DNA of 64,000 bases. It comes from Coriobacteriia bacterium. GTDB taxonomy: Bacteria; Actinomycetota; Coriobacteriia; Anaerosomatales; PHET01. A program made the translations under genes and the position numbers. Location of the stretch: positions 124,001-188,000 of the forward strand of contig JAXMKZ010000051.1 of assembly GCA_034370385.1 (NCBI GenBank), given 5' to 3'. Shown one piece after another: positions 6,576 through 63,214 of the stretch (positions are counted from its first letter, which is position 1; every line of letters starts with the position of its first letter). The notes under the pieces were generated by a model. It was not told the DNA's origin. It saw nothing but the letters and a program-made list of their open reading frames with translations, and ran no database searches.

Positions 6576-7976
6576 ATGAGCGACGGTCCGATAGGCGCGG
6601 ACGACACACCTCTCCAACTTGATGAGGCGCTCTATCGTGCCCTCTTCGATCTCTCGCCTGACCCCATGGTTGTGCACGACGGGCGCATTGCGCTCGCGGC
6701 TAACCGCGCTGCGCAGGAGTTCTTCGGGGTCGCGGAAGAGCAGGTTGCCGGCAGAGGCCTCGAGGAGTTCATTCACCCCGACTATCGAGTGCCGATTGCT
6801 GTGCGCGTGCGCGAGATGATGGTCTCACACAGGGTTCCGCCGCTTGCCGAGATTCGCGTCTTGAGGTCGGACGGGATGCCTTCAGAGGTCGAGATATCCT
6901 CCGCGCCTATCGTTGCGGGTGCTCGCCAGGTGGTTGTCACGCTCTTCCGTGACCTGAGTGAACGCAGGCAGCATCAGGCTGAACTCGAGGAGTCTGAGGC
7001 TCAGTTCGGGTCCGTGCTGGAGAACGCACCGTTCGGAGTGCATATGTATCGGCTGAAGCCGGACGGGCGGCTGGTCTTCGTCGGAGCCAACCCCGCCGCC
7101 GATCGCATGCTCGGGATGGATAACTCGGTGATCATCGGCAAGACCATCGAGGAGGCGTTTCCGGGGCTGAGTGACACCGACGTGGCTGTTCGCTACCGGG
7201 AGGTCGCCTCGACGGGTCGGCCCTGGTCATCGAACCAGATCGATTACCACGAGGGGCAGATACGCGGGGCGTTCGAGGTCACGGCGTTTCGAGCTGCACG
7301 CGGGTTGATGGTGGCCATGTTCAACGACGTCACCGAGCGGCTACAGATCCAAGACCAGCTTCAGGAGTTGCTCGTGGACCAGACTGAGGCGCTCGCGGAC
7401 GCGCATCGTGAGCTCGAAGGCGTAGTCGCCATCGTGAGCAGGACCGTCGAAGTCAGAGATCCCTACACGGCCGGGCATCAGCGGCGCGTGGCCCAGCTGG
7501 CCAGGGCGATCGCTGTGCACCTCAACATGGATGCCGAAGAGGTCGAGAGGATTCGGATTGCCGGGTCGGTGCACGACATCGGCAAGGTGTCGGTTCCTGC
7601 TGAGATACTCTCCAAGCCCGGAAAGCTCACGCCTGCGGAGTACGAGCTCGTGAAGTACCACTCGGAGGCCGCGCACGAGATCCTGTGCAGCGTCGACTTC
7701 GCCTGGCCGTTGGCTGAGGTCGTCTACCAGCACCATGAGCGGCTCGACGGCAGCGGATACCCGCGCGGGCTCTCAGGCGACGAGATCGCCGTGGGCGCAC
7801 GCATCCTTGCCGTGGCCGACGTGGTGGAGGCGATGTGTTCGCATCGGCCCTACCGTCCTGCCATCGGAGCCGACGCCGCTCTTGCCGAGATCAACGAGGG
7901 CAGCGGCAGGCACTACGACCCGAACGTGGTCGAAGCCTGCGTCGGTGCATTCGACGGCGGGTTCGCCTTCGAGTGA
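6576..7976 (+). CDS. PAS-PAS-HD-GYP protein, probable cyclic-di-GMP phosphodiesterase
   Basis: Signalling protein of 466 residues with no membrane helix, so a cytoplasmic sensor. A first PAS domain (about 20-130) and a second (about 142-255) are joined by a short helical linker to an HD-GYP domain (about 285-460). The catalytic domain keeps the HD pair in HDIGK (333-337) and the signature HHERLDGSGYP (386-396), so it is expected to hydrolyse cyclic-di-GMP to pGpG/GMP. The PAS domains may bind a ligand, haem or flavin; nothing in the sequence decides this. The next gene starts in a GTGA overlap with its stop. A GGDEF protein at 56412-57440 could supply the opposing activity. Confidence 0.9.
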   Translation: MSDGPIGADDTPLQLDEALYRALFDLSPDPMVVHDGRIALAANRAAQEFFGVAEEQVAGRGLEEFIHPDYRVPIAVRVREMMVSHRVPPLAEIRVLRSDGMPSEVEISSAPIVAGARQVVVTLFRDLSERRQHQAELEESEAQFGSVLENAPFGVHMYRLKPDGRLVFVGANPAADRMLGMDNSVIIGKTIEEAFPGLSDTDVAVRYREVASTGRPWSSNQIDYHEGQIRGAFEVTAFRAARGLMVAMFNDVTERLQIQDQLQELLVDQTEALADAHRELEGVVAIVSRTVEVRDPYTAGHQRRVAQLARAIAVHLNMDAEEVERIRIAGSVHDIGKVSVPAEILSKPGKLTPAEYELVKYHSEAAHEILCSVDFAWPLAEVVYQHHERLDGSGYPRGLSGDEIAVGARILAVADVVEAMCSHRPYRPAIGADAALAEINEGSGRHYDPNVVEACVGAFDGGFAFE

Positions 7977-54081: not shown

Positions 54082-55464
54082 ATGCGTATCGCAGTACTTG
54101 GTGGGGGCCCCGGTGGCTACTCTGCGGCGTTTCAGGCGGCTCGCCTTGGCGCTGATGTCGTCCTCGTGGAGCGGGAGCGCCTCGGCGGAACCTGTCTGAA
54201 CTGGGGATGCATTCCGACCAAGACGATCCTGCGCTCAGCCCACATCGTCGCCGATACGCGTCATGCGGCCGAGTTCGGGCTGAACGCGACGGTCGCGAGC
54301 GTCGACATCGACGCCCTGCGCGCCCGCAAAGAGGGTGTGGTCGACGAGCTCGTCGGCCAGATCGAGGGTTCCGCCCAGCGACTGAAGGTCGATGTGATCT
54401 ACGGTGAGGGTCGGCTGGCGGGAGCGCATGCGATCGAAGTCGCACTCGCCGATGGCGCTACGTCCACCGTCGAAGCTGACGCGGTGATCATCGCCACGGG
54501 GTCGATCGTCTTCAAGCTCCCGAACATCGACCACGACATGGACGGCGTGTGGACGAGCGATGACGCGGTCTCCCTGTCGGATATTCCCCACGAGATCGTC
54601 ATCATCGGCGGCGGCGTGATCGGGCTGGAGTTCGCCTGCGCCTACGCAGCCTTCGGCTCGCGCGTGACGGTCGTCGAGCTCATGGAGCAGATACTTCCGG
54701 GCAACGACAAGCGCGTGGTGCGCCTGGCCCAGGCTCGACTTGAGGAGATGGGCGTCGAGTTCCACCTCGGTGACGCGGTGGATGCGGTGGAGCGTGGCGC
54801 CGATGGACGCATGCACGCGACGCTGCGCTCGGGCGGGGTGCTGACTGCCGACATCGTCATGAGTGCGGTCGGGCGCGTGCCCAACACCGCCGGCTTCGGT
54901 TTCGAGGAGGCTGGCATCGAGTTCGACCGTCGCGCCATCAAGGTCGACCGGTACTTCGCCACGTCGATCGCCAACGTCTTTGCCGTCGGTGATGCCATCG
55001 GGGGCATGATGCTCGCGCACGTGGCTGAAGAAGAGGGTGTGGCCGCTGCCCGCAACGCGGTCGCTGTGCTGTCCGGCCAGCAGCCACACGAGACCGTCGA
55101 CAACGACTGTATCCCCGCTTGCGTCTATACGTTTCCCGAGGTAGCGGTCGTGGGCCGCAGCCGCGACGGGGCCAAGGAGAGCGGAGTCGACGCGGTTCAG
55201 GCCATCGCGAAGTTCGCCGCCAACGGCAAGGCGCTCGGCGAGGGCGAGGGTGACGGGTTCGTGCAGCTTGTGGCCGAGAAGGGCACCGGCAGGATAGTCG
55301 GATGCCAGATCGTGGGCCCGCACGCCGTGGAGATCATCCATGAGGTAGCGGTCGCGATGCGCCACGGCATCACCGTGACGCAGCTCGCCCACACCGTTCA
55401 CGCCCATCCCACGGTGAGCGAGGTCATCAAGTTCGCGGCACTCGACGCATCGTCGAAGGTCTGA
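54082..55464 (+). CDS. lpdA: Dihydrolipoyl dehydrogenase
   Basis: FAD flavoprotein of 460 residues that reoxidises dihydrolipoamide with NAD+. It has the FAD loop VLGGGPGGYSAAF, the redox disulfide C38/C43 in GGTCLNWGCIPTK, the NAD loop IIGGGVIGLEFACAYAAFG, the second FAD contact NVFAVGDAIGG and the C-terminal catalytic His-Glu in HTVHAHPTVSE. Full length. It serves the glycine cleavage system or a 2-oxoacid dehydrogenase; neither is encoded nearby, but lipA downstream supports the glycine-cleavage option. Confidence 0.94.
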   Translation: MRIAVLGGGPGGYSAAFQAARLGADVVLVERERLGGTCLNWGCIPTKTILRSAHIVADTRHAAEFGLNATVASVDIDALRARKEGVVDELVGQIEGSAQRLKVDVIYGEGRLAGAHAIEVALADGATSTVEADAVIIATGSIVFKLPNIDHDMDGVWTSDDAVSLSDIPHEIVIIGGGVIGLEFACAYAAFGSRVTVVELMEQILPGNDKRVVRLAQARLEEMGVEFHLGDAVDAVERGADGRMHATLRSGGVLTADIVMSAVGRVPNTAGFGFEEAGIEFDRRAIKVDRYFATSIANVFAVGDAIGGMMLAHVAEEEGVAAARNAVAVLSGQQPHETVDNDCIPACVYTFPEVAVVGRSRDGAKESGVDAVQAIAKFAANGKALGEGEGDGFVQLVAEKGTGRIVGCQIVGPHAVEIIHEVAVAMRHGITVTQLAHTVHAHPTVSEVIKFAALDASSKV

Positions 55465-55495: not shown

Positions 55496-56419
55496 ATGGA
55501 GAGCGAGCCGAACACAGACACCCCTGACCGTGGCGCGAACGCTAGGAAGCGCATGCCCGCATGGCTGCGTCGCCCGATCGCACGTCCGGGCGCATTCGGT
55601 CACGTCGATCAGCTCATGGATGAGCTGGATCTCAACACGGTGTGTCAGTCGGCGAAGTGTCCCAACCGCGGTGAGTGCTTCAGTTCCGGTACGGCGACCT
55701 TCCTCATCATGGGTGGGTCGTGCACGCGTGCGTGCCGCTTCTGTGCGGTGGAATCGCGCCCACCCCTTCCACTCGATTCCGACGAGCCGCGGCGAGTGGC
55801 CGAGGCCGCGCACCGACTCGGTTTGAAGCATGTCGTGATCACGACCGTCACCCGGGATGACCTGCCTGACGGGGGAGCGGAACACCTCGTTTCAGTCATT
55901 CGCGCCGTCCGTGAGGCTGTGCCGGGGGCTTCCGTCGAGGTGCTGACGAGCGATTTCGCCGGTCGGATGGACTCCGTCGATGTGGTGCAAGCCGCGAGGC
56001 CGGACGTCTTCAGCCACAACATGGAGACCGTCCCGCGGCTCTACTCCGAGGTGCGACCGCAGGCCGACTACCGCCGTAGCCTCGCCGTGCTGGCTAGGGC
56101 GCGCTCCACGTGCCCCGATGTGCCCACGAAGTCGGGCCTCATGCTGGGGCTGGGCGAGACCCCCGATGAGGTGCTCGCGGTGCTTGGCGATCTTCGACAG
56201 GCCGGCGTCGAGATGCTCACGCTGGGGCAGTATCTGCAGCCCAGCGCCGACCATCTCCCGGTTGTCGAGTTCGTGGAGCCCTCGGTCTTCGTCGAGCTGT
56301 CGCGCAAGGCGTACGGCTTGGGGTTCACCGCAGTCGCGAGCGCGCCCTTCGTGCGGTCGAGCTATCACGCCGGCGAACTCGCCGATTCCCGGAGCACGCG
56401 TCCGCTCGAGGTCAGTTGA
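55496..56419 (+). CDS. lipA: Lipoyl synthase
   Basis: Radical-SAM enzyme of 307 residues that inserts two sulfurs into octanoyl groups on lipoate-dependent proteins. Both Fe-S clusters have their cysteines: the sacrificial cluster in CQSAKCPNRGEC (C50, C55, C61) and the radical-SAM cluster in CTRACRFC (C76, C80, C83). PNRGECFSSGTATFLIMG, VTRDDLPDGGA and YLQPSADHLPV are LipA landmarks. It follows lpdA by 31 nt but has its own promoter. Its 3' end overlaps the convergent GGDEF gene by 8 nt. Confidence 0.95.
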   Translation: MESEPNTDTPDRGANARKRMPAWLRRPIARPGAFGHVDQLMDELDLNTVCQSAKCPNRGECFSSGTATFLIMGGSCTRACRFCAVESRPPLPLDSDEPRRVAEAAHRLGLKHVVITTVTRDDLPDGGAEHLVSVIRAVREAVPGASVEVLTSDFAGRMDSVDVVQAARPDVFSHNMETVPRLYSEVRPQADYRRSLAVLARARSTCPDVPTKSGLMLGLGETPDEVLAVLGDLRQAGVEMLTLGQYLQPSADHLPVVEFVEPSVFVELSRKAYGLGFTAVASAPFVRSSYHAGELADSRSTRPLEVS

Positions 56420-57440
56420 CCGAGATGTGGGGGCGCGGGCTTCCCGCGTGATCGCGCCCCTCTTCCTTCGCCTCATAGAGCGAGGCGTCAGCGGCAGCGA
56501 TCATCGTCTCGGCCTCGACCCGGGTGCCCCCGTCGGACCACGTTCCTCCTGCGCTCACCGTGAGCGTCGGCTCGCCCCCGACTTCGGCGGACATGTCGCG
56601 CACCGAGGCCACGAGGCGGTCCATGAGCCCCTGCAGCTCGCCCCGGTCGGTTTCCGGTGCCAGTACGAGGAACTCATCGCCGCCGAAGCGGCCCAGCACA
56701 TCAGATGTCCGTACCCCGCGCCGCAGCGCGTCCGCTACAAGACGGAGCGCCTCGTCACCGGCGGCATGGCCGCGCGTATCGTTCACCTGCTTGAAGTGGT
56801 CGATGTCGATCAGCACGACCGCGAGCGGCCGACCGTAGCGCTCAGACCATGCCAGCCACTGCGAGAGATGAGCAAGAAGGCCCCGGCGGTTATACAGCCC
56901 CGTCAGTTGGTCTCGAACCGTGAGCGCGGCGAGGCGCTGCTGGTCGCGGTACGAGCGGAGCAGCACCTTGGCGAGGAAGCCCGCGAGACGGCGTTGTGAG
57001 TAGTGCTCCTCGACAGCCTCGATCAGCCGCGACACGTGGCGGAAGTAGGCCTCTCGGTGTTCCACATAGCTACCAGGCTCCATGTAGTCGGCGAGTTCGC
57101 TGAATGTGTGGTCGAGCATGAAGAACTCCATACGAACGGCGACGTCCAGCATCCCGTCCGTATCAAGCTGGTCAATGTCTGCAGGGGGGAGCGCAACGAG
57201 CTCATCGCGAATCTCGGTCAGTCGTGCGGACAAGCCGTGACCGTCCGCGATGTCGGGAACGAGACCAGACTCCCAGGCGACAAGGAGGTCACGCCACCAC
57301 TCCACATGCTGGCGCTCCTCCTTGGCAAGCTGGAGGAATGTGGTCGCGAGCTTCTCGTCGTCGGTGGCGCCCGCCAGACGGCCGTAGGTTTCGCCCGCAA
57401 AGGTGTCAAGCTCGACACACAACTCGAGTATCTCGCGCAC
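56412..57440 (-). CDS. Ferritin-like domain fused to GGDEF diguanylate cyclase
   Basis: Signalling protein of 342 residues, apparently soluble. The N-terminal half (about 1-165) is all-helical and rubrerythrin/ferritin-like: GETYGRLAG, then LQLAKEERQHVEWWRDLL with an E-x2-H pair (E42, H45), MEFFMLDH (E105) and IEAVEEHYSQ (E141-H146), candidate ligands of a diiron centre. The C-terminal GGDEF domain (about 175-340) has DQLTGLYNRRG, IDIDHFKQVND and an intact GGDEF (253-257), with the inhibitory I-site RTSD (244-247) five residues before it. It should make cyclic-di-GMP from GTP in response to oxygen, peroxide or iron. GTG start with AAGGGAG upstream. Confidence 0.85.
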   Translation of the reverse strand: MREILELCVELDTFAGETYGRLAGATDDEKLATTFLQLAKEERQHVEWWRDLLVAWESGLVPDIADGHGLSARLTEIRDELVALPPADIDQLDTDGMLDVAVRMEFFMLDHTFSELADYMEPGSYVEHREAYFRHVSRLIEAVEEHYSQRRLAGFLAKVLLRSYRDQQRLAALTVRDQLTGLYNRRGLLAHLSQWLAWSERYGRPLAVVLIDIDHFKQVNDTRGHAAGDEALRLVADALRRGVRTSDVLGRFGGDEFLVLAPETDRGELQGLMDRLVASVRDMSAEVGGEPTLTVSAGGTWSDGGTRVEAETMIAAADASLYEAKEEGRDHAGSPRPHISVN

Positions 57441-57543
57441 TCGGGCTCCCTTCGATCATGGAAAAACACCGACATAGAGGTCATTCCCCTCGGGGCGACG
57501 GTGCGAACCACACACAAGGCGTGATTCCGCTGCGCGGAGGGTG

Positions 57544-57549
57544 TATACT
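57544..57549 (+). promoter_or_regulatory. -10 of the UPF0280 gene
   Basis: TATACT with a weak -35 (GTGATT) 17 bp upstream. It gives a transcription start near 57556, so start codons at or before 57541 can be excluded. Confidence 0.5.
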
Positions 57550-57651
57550 ACGTGCGTGGGGACTTCGGTCCGCGCTGGGGTTCTTCTTCATGTGTACGGG
57601 ACGCCTGCTTCGTTTCGACGGGGTGGGCGTCTCGGGTTCTGGGGAGGGTTC

Positions 57652-58392
57652 TTGGCAGGAAGGTTCGAACCGCGCTGGTACCGACGGGCCGTGCGCCCTG
57701 AGGGACTCGTGGGTTTCAGAGTCGTGCACGCGGAGACAGACATCCTGGTCCACGCCGTTCGCGATCTCAGTGAGCACGCCGCTTCCGTGGTCGCCCGGCT
57801 GAGGCACGAGCTGGAGAGCTACGTCGCCGCGCGCCCCCTGTTCGCTGAGTCTTTCACTCCCGTGCCCGCTGAACCCGCCGCGCCTGCAATCGTGCGTTCC
57901 ATGGCCGCTGCCGCCCTCGCGGCGGGCGTTGGTCCTTTTGCGGCGGTCGCCGGAGCCTTCGCCGATGAGGTCGGCGAGGAGCTCCTGTCGCTCTCTGCCC
58001 AGGTCATCGTCGAGAACGGCGGCGACATCTTCGTGGCGGGCGACGCCGACCGATTGGTCGCTCTGTGGAGCGGAGACGATGCGGATGGTATCGGGTTGCG
58101 CATCAAGGCGGGGTCTCAGCCGTGCGGCGTGGCGACTTCAAGCGCAACAGTGGGGCCTTCGGTGAGCCTGGGTCGGGCGAGCGCTGCGACCGTGGTGGCA
58201 GAGTGCGCCGCCCTGGCCGATGCGGTCGCAAGCGGCGTGGGGAATCGGGTCCGCAGCTTGGCAGACGTCGCGAAGGCTCTCGATTGGGGTAGGAGGATTG
58301 AAGGCGTTCGCGCGGTGATCGTCGTCGTCGATGGGTCGGTCGGCGCCGTCGGAGACGTTGAACTGGTTCCCCTGCCGCGGACCCTGGGCTGA
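57652..58392 (+). CDS. UPF0280 family protein (ApbE-related fold)
   Basis: Protein of 246 residues matching the UPF0280 family, which has an ApbE-like flavin-transferase-related fold and is known mainly from methanogens and other anaerobes. Landmarks are RAVRPEGLVGFRVVHAETDILVHAVRDL, AAGVGPFAAVAGAFADEVG and ENGGDIFVAGDA, the latter like the metal/flavin site of ApbE. The start chosen is TTG at 57652, just after GGGGAGGG and downstream of the -10; a GTG at 57592 is possible. Its function is not known; in ApbE proteins this fold attaches FMN to proteins. Confidence 0.78.
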   Translation: MAGRFEPRWYRRAVRPEGLVGFRVVHAETDILVHAVRDLSEHAASVVARLRHELESYVAARPLFAESFTPVPAEPAAPAIVRSMAAAALAAGVGPFAAVAGAFADEVGEELLSLSAQVIVENGGDIFVAGDADRLVALWSGDDADGIGLRIKAGSQPCGVATSSATVGPSVSLGRASAATVVAECAALADAVASGVGNRVRSLADVAKALDWGRRIEGVRAVIVVVDGSVGAVGDVELVPLPRTLG

Positions 58393-58461: not shown

Positions 58462-59799
58462 ATGAGCATACGGGCATTCAGCATGCGAGGGCTCGCGCTT
58501 CGTCGCACCAGTGATGAAGCCTTGCTTGAGTACGCTCGAGAGGGCCAGGAGATCGCCTTCGCCGAGCTGTATCGCAGGTTCCACGGGTTGGTGTACGGAT
58601 ACTGCCTCGCCCGCCTTATGGATCCCGCAGCAGCAGAGGACGTCGCTCAAGAGACGTTCATGCGCATCAATCGCTCGCGCTCCTCCGAGACCATCCACAG
58701 CGCGCGCGCATGGGTGTTCACCGTGGCGCGCAGCGCGGTGATCGATCACGTTCGTCGCGCAAAGCGGATGCCCGACTCGCTTCCGGTGGACGATGCGTTC
58801 GAGCTGGCCGCTGCCAACTCGGATGCAGCCGACGGGATGATGCGCCGCGAAGACGCCAAACTCGTCTTCCTCGCGCTGGCTCGTCTCCGTCCCCGCTACC
58901 GCAGCGCGCTCGTGCTGCGGGAGATGCACGGGCTCTCGTCGGCCGAGATCGGCGAGTCACTCTCGCTCAAGGCCGGTGCCGTGGATACGCTGGTGTGTCG
59001 CGCTCGTGATGCCTTCGGCCGTGAGTACGCCGCCCTGGGTGACCTCCGAAGCGACTGCCGTCGTGCGGTCGAGTACATCTACCGCGATCGCGGCACGGGT
59101 ATCGCGGAGGCTGAGCGCGGGTGGCTCACATCACACGTTTCGACCTGTCCTCGCTGCGCGCGCGAGCGCCTGATGGCTGCCGATCCGAAGAGGCTCGCAT
59201 TCCTGCTTCCCTTCGCAAGCATCCATCCCGAGGGTATCGGGCTGTTGCGACGGGCGGTGGAAGCGTTCGGCGCGGCACCGGTGTCACTTGAGGGCACGAG
59301 TCTGATGGCGGCCAAGGTCACGGCGGTGGCCATCGCAGCCACGCTCGCGATCGCGCCGGGTCTCTCGCATCTGGGTCCCGAGAAGCCTGAAGGAGCCGCG
59401 AGGCCCACTAGCGTCGCCCGTACCGCACCTGCCGTGACTGAGCCTGCACAACACGAGCGTGTCGTGGTGGAGCGCGAAGCGCCTTCACGCGCATCCGTGG
59501 TTGAGACCGCGTCGGTCGAGGAGTCCGCATCGACCAACGTCCCGGGAGCGGCCGTCGTCGTGGTCGAGGGCCCCACCGCCCCGGAAGACGAGTTGATCAG
59601 CGACGTCGACGTGGGTTCCGATGCGACGACTCCGCCGGTCAGCGCGGCCGGTACTGAGACGCTCGATCCTCCGGTGGATCCGGGATCGGATTCTGTCGAA
59701 CCCCGTGATGAGGTCGACGCAGGCACCGCCGAACAGCCGTCAGGCGACGCGGTCGAGCCGGGGGCACCGCCTTCCATCGAGACGAGCGTCGCACTGTAG
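58462..59799 (+). CDS. ECF sigma factor fused to zinc finger, membrane segment and long tail
   Basis: Protein of 445 residues. Sigma region 2 (about 18-100, FHGLVYGYCLARLMDPAAAEDVAQETF) and region 4 (about 130-190, LRPRYRSALVLREMHGLSSAEIGESL) form a complete ECF sigma factor. Then comes C199 followed after 25 residues by HVSTCPRC (H225, C229, C232), the pattern of anti-sigma zinc domains, then one hydrophobic segment (about 282-300) and a 140-residue disordered tail rich in Ala, Val, Pro, Glu and Asp. The sigma factor and its anti-sigma module thus appear fused and tied to the membrane. AAAGGAAAG precedes the ATG. Its target promoters are unknown. Confidence 0.86.
   Translation: MSIRAFSMRGLALRRTSDEALLEYAREGQEIAFAELYRRFHGLVYGYCLARLMDPAAAEDVAQETFMRINRSRSSETIHSARAWVFTVARSAVIDHVRRAKRMPDSLPVDDAFELAAANSDAADGMMRREDAKLVFLALARLRPRYRSALVLREMHGLSSAEIGESLSLKAGAVDTLVCRARDAFGREYAALGDLRSDCRRAVEYIYRDRGTGIAEAERGWLTSHVSTCPRCARERLMAADPKRLAFLLPFASIHPEGIGLLRRAVEAFGAAPVSLEGTSLMAAKVTAVAIAATLAIAPGLSHLGPEKPEGAARPTSVARTAPAVTEPAQHERVVVEREAPSRASVVETASVEESASTNVPGAAVVVVEGPTAPEDELISDVDVGSDATTPPVSAAGTETLDPPVDPGSDSVEPRDEVDAGTAEQPSGDAVEPGAPPSIETSVAL

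Positions 59800-59904: not shown

Positions 59905-63214
<3,310 letters not shown>

Follow-up and report, generated by a model that had tools for sequence, protein, structure and literature searches.

Can a ferritin-like domain with a putative metal site serve as the sensory input of a diguanylate cyclase? This question is raised by a single gene in the window, the 64,000-nucleotide stretch of DNA analysed here, which the original prediction had read as a fusion of a rubrerythrin/ferritin-type diiron domain with an intact GGDEF domain. The open reading frame is present at 56412-57440 on the minus strand and encodes 342 aa. It starts with a GTG codon, and its first residue coincides with the first residue of the orthologues. 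Some relatives have long open frames upstream, of up to 689 aa; these were treated as GC-rich read-through, since homology starts at the same Met/Val in all. A promoter scan found nothing. AlphaFold2, supplied with an alignment of homologues, models the whole protein with a pLDDT of 90.5, and its parts are arranged as follows:

56412..57440, minus strand: whole gene, ferritin-like domain, signalling helix and GGDEF domain (342 aa)
56994..57440, minus strand: ferritin-like four-helix bundle, residues 1-149 (AlphaFold2 pLDDT 87-90; VIA-align)
56916..56993, minus strand: continuous helix, residues 150-175, linking sensor to GGDEF domain (model secondary structure)
56451..56918, minus strand: GGDEF diguanylate cyclase domain, residues 175-330 (PF00990, E 4.3e-40)
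56700..56711, minus strand: I-site RxxD (R244-D247), five residues before GGDEF
56670..56684, minus strand: GGDEF motif, residues 253-257, intact

The protein is best explained as a putative cytoplasmic one-component sensor diguanylate cyclase.

The claim of an intact cyclase with an I-site holds in full: the PF00990 match, the RxxD of residues 244-247 and the GGDEF of residues 253-257 are all intact, and the segment reads RTSD-VLGRF-GGDEF. R244 and D247 occur in 30/30 aligned sequences covering the I-site region. D212, N220, D221, and D229 are conserved together with the GGDEF motif, the 30 aligned sequences that span the catalytic-type positions keep them, and cyclase and I-site residues are near-invariant over at least 30 orthologues. 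D229 lies in a GHxxGD motif, which we take to favour c-di-GMP over a Hypr-type product. By its sequence, an active-looking diguanylate cyclase domain is supported. Further, the genome itself contains 15 GGDEF domains, three EAL domains and at least one HD-GYP domain, and c-di-GMP turnover is thus present. The HD-GYP enzyme noted earlier at 6576-7976 on the plus strand is real (HD_5, E 3.6e-45) and carries PAS domains. A search for PilZ in the same genome gave no match at E 0.001.

The four-helix bundle proposed for the N-terminal domain is borne out by the AlphaFold2 model and by the VIA-align list of ferritins, Dps, and rubrerythrins, which agree. Modelled alone with an alignment of homologues, the domain reaches a pLDDT of 87.1. 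The bundle helices span residues 2-25, 29-57, 94-108/111-120 (with a kink at 108-111), and 125-146, while the long B-C connection includes a further helix (70-83). The top structural match is TM1526 (1vjx; Z 13.8, rmsd 2.4, 137 residues), one of the ferritin-like diiron-carboxylate proteins, and after it come Dps, ferritin, rubrerythrin, and 3EZU at Z 11-12 (rubrerythrin 1ryt, Z 11.1); for a helical bundle, VIA-align scores of Z 11-14 are not decisive taken alone. A Foldseek search of the domain is weak, with 3ezu as best match (E 0.008) and ferritins after it; the sequence-profile evidence is independent of the structure search. In hhalign, the family matches the rubrerythrin-type profile with a probability of 97% (E 2e-10). 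Pfam Rubrerythrin (PF02915) matches the N-terminal 171 residues weakly, at E 0.0014 and 19.5 bits and thus below the cut-off of 22.8, but 34 of the 37 orthologue domains match it at E≤1 (best 5.8e-9). Other recurrent weak Pfam matches among the homologous domains include COQ7, Ferritin, Ferritin_2, and EncFtn-like; Mn_catalase appears once, as a weak match to an orthologue. As modelled, the N-domain belongs to the ferritin-like superfamily and forms a four-helix bundle of ferritin type.

Two other origins of these matches were considered. Chance helical similarity is rejected because structure and sequence profiles point the same way and because conservation falls on the ligand positions. Haemerythrin identity is rejected by motif, as none of HxxxH, HxxxxE, and HxxxxD is present. 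The haemerythrin pattern H..HxxxxE..HxxxH..HxxxxD does not occur in the domain, its conserved His columns number two, and the Pfam and structure matches listed include no haemerythrin family or fold.

The candidate metal ligands lie on all four helices of the bundle:

57405..57407, minus strand: D12, helix A ligand position (aligned with the rubrerythrin-type Glu; D/E in 56/57)
57306..57317, minus strand: E42xxH45, ExxH of helix B (E 57/57, H 55/57; aligned with the helix B ExxH)
57126..57128, minus strand: E105, helix C ligand position (E 57/57; aligned with the helix C Glu)
57036..57047, minus strand: Y132xxH135 of helix D, with H135 as ligand position (Y and H both 57/57)

By profile-profile alignment, D12, E42, H45, E105, and H135 match five of the six metal-ligand positions of the rubrerythrin type. 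The pairs D12-E15, E42-E45, H45-H48, E105-E111, and H135-H143 were read from global and low-threshold hhalign alignments, in which Y19 additionally aligns with the helix A Tyr of the rubrerythrin-type profile. A profile search of the PDB gives the same helix A-B register with 1VJX and with the encapsulated ferritin 5N5E. Across 57 domains from two subfamilies, one fused to GGDEF and one CxxC-tailed, twelve positions are kept (D/E12, A15, Y19, E42, H45, W49, L52, A101, E105, F113, Y132, and H135). The N-domain contains 40 D/E/H residues, and the five conserved among them are exactly the ligand positions. The candidate ligands are thus conserved in homologues, and their spatial clustering was judged by alignment to known ligand positions.

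The rubrerythrin centre pattern E, ExxH, E, ExxH is absent; the domain reads D, ExxH, E, YxxH. Of the Glu and ExxH motifs originally described, one ExxH is genuine (E42-H45), while the second is a YxxH (Y132-H135) and the helix A ligand is an Asp. An invariant Tyr, Y132 (57/57), occupies the place of the helix D Glu, and consequently the putative site resembles a canonical rubrerythrin centre without being one. The idea of a rubrerythrin/ferritin-type diiron domain therefore survives for the fold and the conserved ligand set but not for the canonical centre. Metal binding by these five residues is likely. We infer a dinuclear site, in which the number of metals is uncertain because the helix D carboxylate is missing. 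Dinuclear centres with fewer carboxylates than that of rubrerythrin occur in manganese catalase and H-ferritin. Position 110 at the helix C kink, an Asp in the order that carries the gene and a His in the CxxC-tailed subfamily, is a possible sixth ligand.

The nearest solved relative is 3EZU, a structural-genomics entry for a GGDEF-domain protein of Geobacter sulfurreducens (NP_951600.1). It is the best PDB match of the full-protein model and shares the full-length architecture, with an N-domain whose match (E 7.5e-19) leaves few of the 172 profile positions uncovered. In contrast, E42, E105, and H135 are replaced by T, Q, and Y, and its ligand positions read E, T, H, Q, Y. Since the architecture is kept despite three lost ligands, the fold can serve without the metal site. 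The group that deposited 3EZU lists it among proteins of unknown function and notes an unidentified ligand (PMC2954221); elsewhere it occurs only as one of the GGDEF sequences of an alignment (PMC4215984). Our literature search found no functional study of 3EZU, and a plasmid search for its domain gave no match. The ligand of 3EZU, bound in the same architecture by a protein lacking three of the five positions, speaks for a bundle that is a dimerisation or small-molecule-binding module with a structural or unloaded metal site. We nevertheless consider such a module quite unlikely here: the five positions are the sole D/E/H residues kept in 57 other domains, even with a different tail, and such conservation would be unexpected in a mere scaffold.

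The different tail is found in a second phylum (G507 and relatives, 8/82 genomes), where the domain precedes a short C-terminal CxxC...CxxC tail and GGDEF is absent. This subfamily keeps all five ligand positions as well as Y132; position 12 is Glu here and Asp in the Anaerosomatales/OPB41 order. The same five positions on a different tail indicate that the ferritin-like domain is a module that brings its ligand set along. The CxxC tail has no Pfam match. Stand-alone ferritin-like proteins (L098:6001-6687 and L107-L113) end in a conserved PxCxxC...SHGICxxC tail that belongs to no Pfam family; they are putative signalling proteins, in which the tail possibly binds a metal or a thiol. One further copy of the ferritin-like/GGDEF fusion, L002 (C30:144419-144931), occurs in the genome of the window, with 29% identity. 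In a quick tree with long branches, it groups with the CxxC-tailed clade and 3EZU, not with the orthologues. L002 is rejected as an order-wide paralogue, a close copy being found in its own genome only; it was probably acquired laterally, as the rest of the order has no close copy.

Among 149 related genomes, the domain occurs in 59, all of one order: 59/69 genomes of that order have it, against 0/80 from the other orders of the class. From the named loci we infer that the order is Anaerosomatales/OPB41 of the Coriobacteriia. A scan of 396 genomes of the phylum confines full-length matches to members of the order, while matches elsewhere cover mostly helices A-B, like any ferritin-like protein. 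In 37 named relatives with GGDEF, the gene is flanked by ligA, DUF2469, and a divergent gene on one side and by convergent lipA-lpd on the other; synteny was judged where the flank was long enough and shows few local insertions. In the window, these neighbours are:

55496..56419, plus strand: lipA, lipoyl synthase, convergent, overlapping the cyclase gene by 8 bases (Pfam; neighbour in 35 loci)
54082..55464, plus strand: lpd, dihydrolipoamide dehydrogenase-like (Pfam; conserved synteny)
60216..62327, plus strand: ligA, NAD-dependent DNA ligase, upstream of the cyclase (Pfam; conserved synteny)

Order-wide presence and the conserved locus indicate that the fusion gene is ancestral and vertically kept in the order rather than sporadic. 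The fusion was rightly called uncommon overall, but the gene is near-universal within the order, and a PDB entry with the architecture dates from 2008 (3EZU). Two contigs labelled Aeromicrobium sp. (L096) and Slackia sp. (L091) have the orthologue amid the neighbours typical of the order and are probably misnamed metagenome bins. The divergent neighbour at 57541-58392 on the plus strand adjoins the cyclase gene in 31 of 38 loci. Its product has no good Pfam match (GGDEF_2 at E 0.001 is likely chance), and presumably resembles UPF0280/ApbE-like proteins. The gene at 58462-59799 on the plus strand encodes an ECF-type sigma factor whose C-terminal extension is long and contains a possible zinc-finger Cys motif, membrane segment, and acidic low-complexity tail.

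The locus also bears on whether the N-domain is itself an enzyme, a peroxidase or ferroxidase whose turnover is reported by the fused cyclase. Rubrerythrin-family relatives are peroxidases, and a Tyr near the site could join the chemistry. However, a rubredoxin domain or evident electron-donor partner is neither fused nor co-transcribed, and the lpd/lipA neighbours lie on the opposite strand, which makes an enzymatic role most improbable.

A sensory role has precedents in other folds. Bhr-DGC of Vibrio cholerae and Bhr-HD-GYP of Ferrovum likewise join an N-terminal helical non-haem iron domain to a redox-controlled c-di-GMP enzyme, and the activity of Bhr-DGC tracks how its diiron site is oxidised or reduced (PMC9388753). 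They differ in their haemerythrin fold and 5-His motif, as opposed to the two conserved His columns found here. Globin-coupled sensor cyclases (DosC/DgcO, BpeGReg) are also direct gas-sensing cyclases but use haem and a globin fold. The rubrerythrin/ferritin-like diiron-carboxylate proteins (1VJX, 1RYT; PF02915) share the fold and five of the six ligand positions, whereas the helix D Tyr, the helix A Asp, and the fused signalling output set our protein apart. Haemerythrin, protoglobin, and PAS are among the sensory inputs of c-di-GMP enzymes named in a 2022 census, from which ferritin and rubrerythrin are absent (PMC8846402), and the literature we searched contains no description of a ferritin-like or rubrerythrin fusion to GGDEF.

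We propose that D12, E42, H45, E105, and H135 would bind a non-haem centre of two metal ions, most likely iron, and that Y132 would lie within or next to it. By analogy with Bhr-DGC, a change of redox or oxygenation state at this centre would shift the bundle, via helix D, together with helix 150-175. The shift of the linker helix would alter how two GGDEF domains meet in the dimer, and this change of geometry would raise or lower c-di-GMP synthesis, with the I-site providing product inhibition. To control of the cyclase by redox state, oxygen or peroxide we assign a probability of about 0.55; iron as the metal, the identity of the signal, and the direction of the response are read by inference. 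Those members of the inferred order that have been cultured are obligate anaerobes and bear pili-like appendages, and one of them reduces Fe(III) and forms an extracellular matrix (PMC9686372). Fe(III) reduction and anaerobic life make an iron or oxygen input biologically sensible, as context rather than evidence.

The same protein could instead sense metal availability, with reversible occupancy by Fe, Mn, or Zn setting cyclase activity irrespective of redox state or oxygen, a reading we regard as rather unlikely. Zinc regulates DgcZ through its CZB domain. Five ligands against the six of rubrerythrin, the helix A Asp, and the lost bridging-type Glu may make metal binding looser or otherwise different, and the Fe(III) reducer among the anaerobic members of the order produces Fe(II) (PMC9686372). 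Against this reading, redox-active ferritin-like centres have a matching ligand set and a matching Tyr at +7 of helix A; the sequence itself contains no feature by which occupancy and redox sensing could be told apart.

Tentatively, and at slightly less than even odds, ferritin-like domains with an atypical D/E, ExxH, E, YxxH dimetal site form an undescribed signal-transduction family that senses oxygen, peroxide or redox state, controlling c-di-GMP synthesis throughout this order of anaerobic actinobacteria and another, CxxC-type output in another phylum. If true, iron-based sensor cyclases would comprise a third class, in addition to those with haem and those with haemerythrin. The protein also offers a compact system for measuring the role of a helix D Tyr that replaces a bridging-type Glu. 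The known roles of ferritin-like diiron proteins are in catalysis and iron storage and hardly in signal input; a preserved ligand set on an order-wide, syntenic cyclase would couple biofilm and attachment signalling in anaerobes directly to oxygen, peroxide or iron.
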